Below are positions 3,294-64,000 of a stretch of DNA of 64,000 nucleotides, piece by piece. Position numbers and translations under genes: made by a program. The stretch comes from Beijerinckiaceae bacterium. Its GTDB lineage: Bacteria > Pseudomonadota > Alphaproteobacteria > Rhizobiales > Beijerinckiaceae. Positions within the stretch are counted from its first letter, which is position 1. Each line of letters starts with the position of its first letter. Location of the stretch: NCBI GenBank assembly GCA_019745195.1, contig JAIETL010000021.1, positions 1 through 64,000 of the forward strand, given 5' to 3'. The notes beneath the pieces are model-generated. The model did not search any database. It was not told the origin of the DNA and was given only the letters and a program-made list of their open reading frames with translations.

Positions 3294-3381
3294 CCGTCTT
3301 TGCGAGGAGCGTAGCGACGAAGCAATCCAGCGGGCGTAGAGCACGCGGCTCTGGATTGCTTCGCTGCGCTCGCAATGACGG
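3294..3381. repeat. Palindromic repeat family A, copy 1
   Basis: GCGAGGAGCGTAGCGACGAAGCAATCCAG...CTGGATTGCTTCGCTGCGCTCGCAATGACGG; homologous to 12629..12708 and 62878..62955. Confidence 0.85.
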
Positions 3382-12628: not shown

Positions 12629-12708
12629 CGTCATTGCGAGCGCAGCGAAGCAATCCAGCCGTCTCGCTCTACGTCTCCTGGATTGCTTCGCTGCGCTCGC
12701 AATGACGG
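12629..12708. repeat. Palindromic repeat family A, copy 2
   Basis: CGTCATTGCGAGCGCAGCGAAGCAATCCAG...CTGGATTGCTTCGCTGCGCTCGCAATGACGG between convergent genes. Confidence 0.9.
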
Positions 12709-16623: not shown

Positions 16624-18336
16624 TCAATGCGGCCCGGTCTCGCTTAGCGTCGGCGCGGGGCTCGGCCGCGCGCCGGGCAGCGAGCCGGTCTGGCGCTCGA
16701 TCATGCGGTGGACCACCGGCGGAACCGGGCCCTTGTGCAGGGCGCGGACGCGCTCGCCGATCTCGGCGTCGGCCTGCGTGACGCGCTGGTTCTGGCGGAC
16801 ATATTCGACCCAGGTCGGGCTGTCGTAACGCTCGATCCAGAGTTCGGCATTGGTCAAATCGCGCAGCAGCGCCCAATGCCGCGCGCCGTCGCGGCGGCGG
16901 ATACGACGGCGCTCGGCCATCGCGCTCAGGAAGGCGACGACGTCCTCCTCGGCGATAACGTATTCGATCGTGACGATGACCGGGCCGCTGCGCGGCTCGA
17001 TATCGACCGCGACCTTGGGTTCGCGCCAGCGGCTGAGCGGATCGAGATTCAGCGCCTCCAGCGGCGGCAGCGCATAGCGCAGGCCGAGCGCAGCGCCGGC
17101 GAGCAATGTGAAAGCCGCGACGAGAAGCGTCTGCTCGGTGCCGATCTGGAGGATCGCCCGGCCCCAGACCCAGCTCCCCAGCGCCATGCCGCCGAACGCG
17201 CCCATCTGGTAGAGCGCCAGCGCCCGGCCGACGACCCAGCGCGGGGCCGAGAGCTGCACGGTGGCGTTGAAGGTCGAGAGGGTCATCACCCAGCACCCGC
17301 CGGTGACGCAGAGCGCCGGCATGGTCAGCCAGAGGCTGGTGCTGACCGCCATCACCGCCACGGCGACGGCGAAGGCGGCGAAGGTCAGCCGCACCAGCGC
17401 CTCGGTGGTCAGCATCCGGCGCAACCGCGCGCTCAGGAACGCGCCGGCGACCGCGCCGGCTCCGAATGCGCCCAGAAGCACGCCGAAGACCAGCGGGCCG
17501 CCCTTGACCAGATCGCGCGCGACCAGCGGCAGCAGCGCCAGCACGACGATGCCGCCAAAGCCGAAGGCGAAGGCGCGCAGGATGACGCTGCGGATGTTGG
17601 GCGACATCGCGACATAGCGCAGGCCGGCGCTCATCGCGATCCAGAGCGTCTCGCGCGGCAGAAGCCGCTCGACCTTGGGCGGCGTCCAGCGCCAGAGCAC
17701 GGCGAGCAGCGCGACGTAACTCACGGCGTTGATGGCGAAAGCGGCAAACGCGCCCGACGCCGCCACGATCGCGCCGCCGATGGCGGGGCCGACGCTGCGG
17801 GCGATGTTGAAGGCGACGCTGTTCAGCGTCACGGCGGCCGGCACGTCCTGCCGCGGAACCATGTCGCCGACCGAGGACTGCCAGGCCGGGTTGTTCAGCG
17901 CCGTGCCGCAGCCGAGCAGGAAGGTGAAGGCGAGCAGGGTCCAGGGCGTCAGCCAGCCGAACCAGGCGAAGACGGCGAGCATGATCGAGACACAGAACAT
18001 GAAGAACTGCGCCGTCAGCATGATCCTGCGGCGGTCGTAATTGTCGGCGATCGCGCCCGCCGCCAGCGAGAACAGCATGATCGGCAGCGTGGTCGAGGCC
18101 TGTACCAGCGCGACGAGATCGGCGGAGGCGGCGATCGCCGTCATCAGCCAGGAAGCGCCTACGGCTTGGATCAGGCCGCCGAAATTGGAGGCGAGGCTGG
18201 CGAACCAGACCGCGCGGAAGACCGGCTGGCGCAAAGGCACGAAGGGCGAGGCCCGTTCCGGCAGCGCGACACCCTCGGCCGCGAGTTCGGCGGCTGCGAC
18301 GTCCTCGACCGGCTGGGCTTTGAGATCGGCAGGCAT
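16624..18336 (-). CDS. MFS transporter (MFS_3 / DUF894 family)
   Basis: FRAVWFASLASNFGGLIQAVGASWLMT, FLLGCGTALNNPAWQSSVGDMVPRQDVPAAVTLNSVAFNIARSVGPAIGG, C-terminal monooxygenase-like tail. Confidence 0.92.
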   Translation of the reverse strand: MPADLKAQPVEDVAAAELAAEGVALPERASPFVPLRQPVFRAVWFASLASNFGGLIQAVGASWLMTAIAASADLVALVQASTTLPIMLFSLAAGAIADNYDRRRIMLTAQFFMFCVSIMLAVFAWFGWLTPWTLLAFTFLLGCGTALNNPAWQSSVGDMVPRQDVPAAVTLNSVAFNIARSVGPAIGGAIVAASGAFAAFAINAVSYVALLAVLWRWTPPKVERLLPRETLWIAMSAGLRYVAMSPNIRSVILRAFAFGFGGIVVLALLPLVARDLVKGGPLVFGVLLGAFGAGAVAGAFLSARLRRMLTTEALVRLTFAAFAVAVAVMAVSTSLWLTMPALCVTGGCWVMTLSTFNATVQLSAPRWVVGRALALYQMGAFGGMALGSWVWGRAILQIGTEQTLLVAAFTLLAGAALGLRYALPPLEALNLDPLSRWREPKVAVDIEPRSGPVIVTIEYVIAEEDVVAFLSAMAERRRIRRRDGARHWALLRDLTNAELWIERYDSPTWVEYVRQNQRVTQADAEIGERVRALHKGPVPPVVHRMIERQTGSLPGARPSPAPTLSETGPH

Positions 18337-61498: not shown

Positions 61499-64000
61499 AT
61501 GCACCTTCTCCCGACCAGCGAGATCAGGCTCGACGACGGCGAGGACGCCGTCGATCTCGATCTGCCGCCGGGGGATGTGCTGGTGCTCTCCTACGCCGAC
61601 AGCGACCTTTCGGCGCTCGCGGTGGCCGCGCGCGACAGCGGGCTGTCGGTCCGGCTGGCCTCGCTGCGGCGGCTGAGGCACCCGCTTTCGCTCGATCTGC
61701 TGGTCGAGAAGACGGTGGCGACGTCGCGCTTTGTGCTGGTCCGCTGCCTCGGCGGGCTCGACTACTGGCGCTATGGCGTGGAGCGGCTGGCGGAGATCTG
61801 CCGGGCGCAGGGCGTGGCGCTGGCGGTGCTGCCGGGAGACGACCGCGCAGATGTCAGGCTGGCGGAGTACGGCACTGTGCCGGAGACCTGTGCGGAGGCT
61901 CTGCTTGGGTATTTCCAGCCCGGCGGCGTCGAGAACATGCGCCGGCTGCTGGGGGGGATCGAGCGTGTTCTGCTTGCTCGGTGCGACCCCTCATCCGGCG
62001 CTTCGCGCCACCTTCTCCCGCAAGGGGAGAAGGGAAGAACCGGCATCGTGTTTCCCTTCTCCCTTTGCGGGAGAAGGTGGCCCGGCGAAGCCGGGACGGA
62101 TGAGGAATCGCTCCGACCTCTCGATCTCTCGCCTATCCCGCTGCCACCACTCTTCGCACTCAGCCCCGATGACTCCCCGCTCGACTGGCGCTCGGCGCTC
62201 GCCGCCCTGCCCGCCGATAGCGCCCTCATTCCCATCCTGGTGTACCGCTCGGGCGTCACGGCGGGCGACGCCGCCATGGCGCAGTCGCTCTCGGCTGCGC
62301 TTGCCGCGCACGGTCACGCCCCGCTCGTCCTCGCGCTGACCAGCCTGAAAGACACGGCCGTCACATCCGAACTCGCGGCGCTGATCGCGCTCCGCAAGCC
62401 TACGCTGATCGTCACCACAACGGCCTTCTCCGCGCGCGACGGTCAGGGCTTCGTGCTCGACGCCGCCGACTGTCCGATCCTGCAGGCAGTGCCCGTCGGC
62501 AGCGCGCGCGAGGCCTGGACCGCCTCGCCGCGCGGGCTCTCCGCCGTCGATCTCGCCATGCAGGTGGCGCTGCCGGAATTCGACGGGCGGATCGGGGCTG
62601 TTCCGGTCGCCTTCAAGGCGGATGCCAAGGACGCCGCGACCGGACTGACGATCCGCCGGCTGGTGCCCGATCCCGACGGCGTCGCGGCGCTGGCCGACCT
62701 CGCCACAGGCTGGATCGCGCTGGCCGGGAAGTCTGTCGGCGAACGCAGACTCGCGCTGGTGATGTCGGACTATCCCGCACGCGGCGGCCGGGCCGGTTTC
62801 GCGGTCGGGCTCGACACGCCCGCGAGCGTCGCGGCAATCGATGCGCTGCTGGCGGAGGCGGGTTATGACGTCGATCCCCGTCATTGCGAGCGGAGCGAAG
62901 CAATCCAGCGTCTCACGCCGACCTCTGGATTGCTTCGCTCCGCTCGCAATGACGGCAAGGATGCATCCGCGCTGATGGAGAGGCTTACCGCAGGCCCAGC
63001 CGATCTGGCTTTGCCGCTCTCCGCCTACCGCGCCTGGCTCGCCACCATTCCGGCCGCCGCCCGCGACGCGCTGATCGCCTCCCATGGCGACCCGGCCGCC
63101 GACCTCGCCTGCGACGGCGAGACCTTCCGCTTCCGCGTCGTCATACGCGGCAATCTCACCGTCGCGCTCCAGCCGCCCCGCGACGCCACGCCCGACCGCA
63201 AGGCGCGCTATCACGACCCCGACGCCCCGCCCTGCCATGGCTATCTCGCCTTCTACCGGGCGCTGCGGGAGACGGCCCGCATCGACGCTCTGATTCATCT
63301 CGGGACCCATGGCACGACCGAATGGCTGCCGGGCAAAGCGGTGGCGCTGTCTTCCGCCTGCTGGCCGCGCCTCGTCACGCAGGGGCTTCCGGTGGTCTAT
63401 CCTTACGTGGTCGACGACCCCGGCGAGGCCGCCCCCGCCAAACGCCGGCTCTGCGCGATCACGCTCGGCCATCTCCCGCCTCCCTTGGCCGAGACGGGGG
63501 CAGGCGGCGAGGTCGCGCTGCTGCGCGATCTCGTCGAGGAGTTTTCGCAGGCGCAGGTGATGGACCCGCGCCGGGCGGCGATCGTCGCGCGCGAGATTCT
63601 GGACCGGGCGCAGGCCGCCGGCCTGAGCGAGGCCTGCGGCGTCACGCCGGGCATGGACATAAGCGAGGCGCTGACGCGGCTCGATGCCCAGCTCTGCGAT
63701 ATCACGGAACTGCCCTTCCGCGACGGGTTGCACGTTTTCGGGCGGTCAGTGGAAGACCCGGTTTCGGCAATGCACGAACGCGAAAACCTGCTGCGCGCAC
63801 TCGACGGGCGCTTCGTGCCGCCCGGCCCCGCCGGCTCGCCGCATCGCGGCCGGCCCGATGTGTTGCCGACCGGCCGCAACCTCTCGACCCTCGACCCGCG
63901 CGCAATTCCGACGCGCGCGGCGGCGCGGCTCGGCACGCGCGCAGCACAGGCCGTGATCGCACGCCACCTGCAGGACCAGGGGGATTATCCGCGCCGGATC
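61499..64000 (+). CDS. cobN: Cobaltochelatase subunit CobN, truncated at the window end
   Basis: Manual translation from ATG 61499 is open to base 64000 (no stop, so absent from the ORF track); LALVMSDYPARGGRAGFAVGLDTPAS, HLGTHGTTEWLPGKAVALS, CWPRLVTQGLPVVYPYVVDDPGEAAPAKRR. Confidence 0.95.
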   Translation, partial: MHLLPTSEIRLDDGEDAVDLDLPPGDVLVLSYADSDLSALAVAARDSGLSVRLASLRRLRHPLSLDLLVEKTVATSRFVLVRCLGGLDYWRYGVERLAEICRAQGVALAVLPGDDRADVRLAEYGTVPETCAEALLGYFQPGGVENMRRLLGGIERVLLARCDPSSGASRHLLPQGEKGRTGIVFPFSLCGRRWPGEAGTDEESLRPLDLSPIPLPPLFALSPDDSPLDWRSALAALPADSALIPILVYRSGVTAGDAAMAQSLSAALAAHGHAPLVLALTSLKDTAVTSELAALIALRKPTLIVTTTAFSARDGQGFVLDAADCPILQAVPVGSAREAWTASPRGLSAVDLAMQVALPEFDGRIGAVPVAFKADAKDAATGLTIRRLVPDPDGVAALADLATGWIALAGKSVGERRLALVMSDYPARGGRAGFAVGLDTPASVAAIDALLAEAGYDVDPRHCERSEAIQRLTPTSGLLRSARNDGKDASALMERLTAGPADLALPLSAYRAWLATIPAAARDALIASHGDPAADLACDGETFRFRVVIRGNLTVALQPPRDATPDRKARYHDPDAPPCHGYLAFYRALRETARIDALIHLGTHGTTEWLPGKAVALSSACWPRLVTQGLPVVYPYVVDDPGEAAPAKRRLCAITLGHLPPPLAETGAGGEVALLRDLVEEFSQAQVMDPRRAAIVAREILDRAQAAGLSEACGVTPGMDISEALTRLDAQLCDITELPFRDGLHVFGRSVEDPVSAMHERENLLRALDGRFVPPGPAGSPHRGRPDVLPTGRNLSTLDPRAIPTRAAARLGTRAAQAVIARHLQDQGDYPRRI
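61987..62106. repeat. Palindromic repeat family E, complete, inside the cobN coding sequence
   Basis: CCCCTCATCCGGCGCTTCGCGCCACCTTCTCCCGCAAGGGGAGAAGGG...CCCTTCTCCCTTTGCGGGAGAAGGTGGCCCGGCGAAGCCGGGACGGATGAGG. Confidence 0.92.
62878..62955. repeat. Palindromic repeat family A, copy 3, inside the cobN coding sequence
   Basis: CCGTCATTGCGAGCGGAGCGAAGCAATCCAG...CTGGATTGCTTCGCTCCGCTCGCAATGACGG. Confidence 0.93.

Follow-up and report, generated by a model that had tools for sequence, protein, structure and literature searches.

Unrelated palindromic repeats, among them a CGTC-tagged REP-like dimer, occupy one loop of CobN in frame across Bosea

The closest described relatives of the repeat considered here are the CGTC-tagged REPs, which have been reported inside genes and for which neutral insertion into linkers or loops has been suggested (Di Nocera, De Gregorio, and Rocco, 2013; PMC3733652). 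As stated in the same paper, these repeats have no dedicated transposase, and different REPs were found at about the same recB site in two Xanthomonas species. Two of the Rickettsia palindromic elements (RPEs), RPE-4 and RPE-6, are also CGTC REPs (PMC3733652), and about half of RPEs lie inside genes (PMC10969869).

The window, meaning the whole 64,000-nt stretch of Bosea DNA that was analysed, ends within cobN, which encodes a cobaltochelatase subunit (61499..64000, + strand; the open reading frame runs past the window to contig position 65002, giving 1167 aa). Inside this gene, at 62878..62955 (no strand assigned), lies a 78-nt CGTC-tagged REP-type inverted dimer. Its left arm (62878..62908, + strand) and right, inverted arm (62925..62955, - strand) are each 31 nt long and consist of one CGTC...CCA unit, CGTCATTGCGAGCGNAGCGAAGCAATCCA, with the CGTC ends outermost. 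The arms are 100% complementary and enclose a 16-nt spacer, forming a perfect palindrome that as single-stranded DNA folds into one hairpin (-44.6 kcal/mol, z = -13). The element adds 26 codons, at about CobN residues 461-486, and its translation, RHCERSEAIQRLTPTSGLLRSARNDG, stands within a cobN frame that is open on both sides, as an earlier note on this DNA had read it. That note had also pointed to two relatives elsewhere in the window, and half-site matches (near 3352-3380 and at 12629-12707) and arm pairing show both to be real: a partly decayed dimer at 3318..3380 and a copy with 30-nt perfect arms at 12629..12707 (neither with an assigned strand). Five half-site matches occur in the window against none expected from shuffles, and an Rfam search gave no match at the gathering threshold. 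The note's further claim, that two independent repeat families share this cobN, is borne out by an unrelated palindromic element of the HLLPQGEKG family in the same gene (62004..62084, no strand assigned), also in frame, with 33-nt arms that are 94% complementary.

The element resembles the CGTC-tagged REPs (PMC3733652) in having a CGTC end and an unpaired CCA tail in both arms, many dispersed copies, an alphaproteobacterial host, some in-gene copies and no associated transposase. Half-sites number 93 in forward and 93 in reverse orientation in the genome, dimers of 77-86 bp make up 58/70 sampled elements, and nearly all of the 70 sampled copies are intergenic, with few in genes besides cobN. 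The single unit departs from the published form, however, having a 5-bp outer stem with two inner pairs (z = 0.25) where a stem of 8-9 bp and a loop of 4-5 nt have been described; for this reason it is called CGTC-REP-like and is not assigned to any of the four published families. Like the RPEs, these palindromes stand in frame in conserved genes, but here the in-gene share is only a few per cent (cobN and a few of the 70 sampled copies), and the host, Bosea, is a free-living genus. With the REPIN/RAYT systems, which are built of GTAG REPs, the element shares an inverted REP pair that apparently moves as a unit, but it is CGTC-tagged, and a search of the genome for Y1_Tnp (RAYT-type) genes, the transposase type sought, returned no match with positive controls included. 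A RAYT transposase encoded in the genome was thus rejected, in keeping with what the paper on CGTC REPs states about their transposase (PMC3733652).

In one congener (G050), a copy elsewhere in the genome has nearly the same spacer as the cobN insert and 99% identity; the whole dimer therefore appears, from this sequence likeness, to move or be copied as a unit. At about 80% identity, the closest empty sites have diverged too far for junctions, or a target-site duplication (the MITE criterion), to be read. The CobN loop described below is a system in which the machinery mobilising CGTC REPs can be sought.

The coding capacity of the element is a property of the repeat. At least one open frame is present in 57/58 dimers, and stop-free frames amount to 65% in the element set versus 45% in shuffles, so that the element is unusually open. 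The set is mostly intergenic, and the openness is therefore not due to coding selection but follows from the repeat motif. As an adaptation, the open frame that the earlier note suggested the elements keep for acting as protein linkers is therefore not supported. The cobN copies of any one family are all read in the same frame; this was considered as a sign of selection on the peptide and proved uninformative, as the other frames hold stops in many inserts. RHCERSEAIQ-like peptides in protein databases should be read with caution, as translated repeats.

The host gene is intact over 1167 codons. Two things had been named beforehand as speaking against an in-frame insertion, a broken alignment at the junction and a pseudogene beside a second intact cobN, and neither was seen. 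Repeat-free CobN orthologues align continuously across the junction, and a search of this Bosea genome revealed no other intact cobN, the sole paralogue being 31-34% identical and probably the magnesium-chelatase H subunit. Comparison with the cobN of locus L019 gives differences of 0.126/0.092/0.368 at codon positions 1/2/3, which indicates that the insert-bearing gene is constrained and thus under purifying selection. A pseudogene or duplicate cobN was rejected on these grounds. An artefact, in which cobN were a pseudogene or the insert were removed or bypassed and so never translated, is barely credible: no point in its support was found, the frame is open in occupied orthologues despite many independent changes, and CobT is present in the same genome.

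An AlphaFold2 model of CobN (15 sequences, mean pLDDT 76.5) matches the fold of M. tuberculosis CobN (7c6o). Its pLDDT falls below 50 at residues 163-208 and 462-486, which are the two inserts, each flanked by confident helices, although gaps in the alignment columns account for part of this low confidence. The REP-encoded residues are thus predicted to be disordered.

In CobN sequences from related genomes (55 distinct, of which 54 are from Bosea and one from Microvirga), the loop that holds RHCERSEAIQ... here, between ..AGYDV and LM.ALT.GP, proved highly variable. The genus is Bosea, as CobN sequences of the same genus match named Bosea loci without difference. Across the 54 Bosea proteins it contains CGTC dimers, VIPG-, HPEEP- or PPACGGEG-type palindromes, collapsed remnants or nothing, and every insert is in frame. 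Five families were assigned by eye from peptide and DNA motif: A, the CGTC dimer; B, GTCATCCCGGGC, with the peptide VIPG..TRDP..LTRLVRDD and a subtype B2 (RRSGIHSG); C, CCTCATCCTGAGGAGCCGCG, with the peptide SPHPEEPRSGVSKD; D, CCCCTTCCCCCCGCTTGCGG, with the peptide PLPPACGGEG; and E, seen in one species. Families A, B and E start with (C)GTC and C with CCTC, while D starts otherwise, and on these shared starts A, B, E and C may belong to a single superfamily with D outside it. The family B unit fits the CGTC-REP fold, with an 8-bp stem and a 5-nt loop. Collapsed hairpins occupy the loop in L036, L050, L062, L065 and L073, and it is empty or nearly empty in about 16 of the CobN sequences collected. 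Twelve nucleotides resembling CGTCATTGCGAG are kept there in three sister species of L025 (as CGTCAGTGCGAG in L019); we infer that these remnants are deletion scars. On a maximum likelihood tree of 1042 core columns, with B and B2 scored as separate states, at least 22 changes of state are needed at the loop, or 20 and 19 once branches with support below 80 and 95, respectively, are collapsed.

The loop has been filled, emptied and refilled about 20 times by at least four unrelated families and is thus a place in a working enzyme where selfish DNA naturally lands. The earlier note had proposed large loop-tolerant insertion points in CobN, and the evidence for this part of it is strong: in-frame palindromes are accommodated at four sites across Bosea, the inserts coincide with the segments predicted at low confidence, and the gene is under purifying selection. 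That one loop receives at least four unrelated families is beyond what that single-sequence note contained. The kind of element is published, but recurrent turnover of several families at a single loop throughout a genus is not in the CGTC-REP paper (PMC3733652), and no report of such behaviour was found in the open-access literature. The loop amounts to a replicated natural experiment on the passage of non-coding selfish DNA into protein, with about 20 changes at one place in dozens of species and several stages of decay, and it makes directly testable the long-standing question of whether intragenic REPs and RPEs are neutral or shape protein evolution.

What is observed is a repeated palindrome, in frame in the only intact cobN found, at a loop that in relatives holds other families or none. 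The explanation we favour, and hold to be likely, is that a dispersed, non-autonomous CGTC-tagged REP-type dimer inserted into a permissive CobN loop and that survival was filtered. Palindromes would land at many places in the genome, and in genes they would survive only where the net length is a multiple of three, the frame is stop-free and the loop is structurally free. The CobN loops between conserved blocks would be very permissive, allowing unrelated families to enter, collapse, be deleted and be replaced repeatedly, and the peptide encoded by the insert is probably a passenger without fixed structure. In favour of this insertion and filtering, other in-gene copies likewise lie in linkers: in a glycosyltransferase, where families A and C alternate in frame among congeners; in a large protein that carries family C in frame and that we take to be DUF2126-type; and in BchB, between two Pfam domains. 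The same neutral insertion has a precedent in the suggestion already made for intragenic CGTC REPs (PMC3733652).

One result is unexpected for a neutral passenger and counts against it. In G008, G073 and G050, a stretch of 113 nt made up of the insert and its flanks is the same in all three species, although their cobN genes differ by 9-10%; no longer run of this kind occurs in the gene, and 0/2000 codon shuffles reached it. This identity, together with the commonness of inserts in Bosea CobN, could suggest that the peptide, or a hairpin in cobN DNA or mRNA, was recruited as a linker or regulator and kept by selection. Such a function is nevertheless very improbable, given that different families place unrelated peptides at the same position and that the insert is collapsed or absent there in many species.

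The patchy distribution of the identical tract on the tree is also consistent with a hotspot at the DNA level, in which the loop DNA or an earlier palindrome draws insertions through hairpin-directed integration or homing-like conversion between alleles. The concentration of palindromes in cobN is extreme: in 16 cob loci of 11 kb each (15 Bosea or Boseaceae records and one Rhizobiales), cobN, with 56 kb, contains 15/15 strong in-gene inverted repeats and the genes in the 124 kb of flanks contain none, the seven strong inverted repeats there being intergenic. An operon-wide hotspot was rejected, the flanking genes having no strong in-gene palindrome. Within the genome itself, an unbiased census of 864 kb of 5.4 Mb found 71 strong inverted repeats, only four of them in coding frames and two of these in cobN; in-gene copies were called by a codon-score test on both flanks, which replaced rules of GC by codon position after these had given ambiguous candidates. 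As cobN inserts far outnumber those of the other sampled genes, tolerance alone may not explain them. The element at the second CobN site has palindromes nested at matching positions in its two arms, which points the same way, and REPs are known as insertion sequence targets (PMC1525189). Against such attraction, insert boundaries in the loop differ from species to species by several codons, a common mechanism would be needed for at least four unrelated families, and the glycosyltransferase linker with families A and C behaves alike, as tolerance explains. A DNA-level hotspot is on balance unlikely; if true, it would mean that the gene of a housekeeping enzyme harbours a landing site in the chromosome for palindromes of different origin.

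The three further CobN sites with in-frame palindromes, which take additional families, lie at about residue 46, at residues 159-210 (the site of the HLLPQGEKG family, site II) and at the C-terminus. At site II of L025, L038 and L060, both arms of the HLLPQGEKG element have additional palindromes, PPISGLPEMGNPECQSRQQPTL, nested within them in frame; the hairpin in one of the L038 arms is a different one. Directly after cobN in L009 (4946-6424, contig C13), the translation of an apparent cobG, read by eye, suggests an in-frame repeat of the PLPPADCGGEGRGG type, the arms of which are too degenerate for the strong-palindrome scan. The BchB insert is a decayed CGTC half-element in frame between the Oxidored_nitro and PCP_red domains (G000, contig C7, 62652-62687). 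L204 (G000, contig C38, about 18138-18168) is a lone CGTC half-element translated as SGLLRSARNDG; the open frame around it is long, and the sequence to either side looks coding. A strong inverted repeat is present in 33/54 Bosea CobN sequences versus 7/62 outside the genus, some of the latter at other loops. In Methylobacterium, L111 and L147 have different palindromes at one other CobN loop (codons about 511-618), and at another place in its CobN L147 also has the CGTC element, read in a different frame (TVIASEAKQS).
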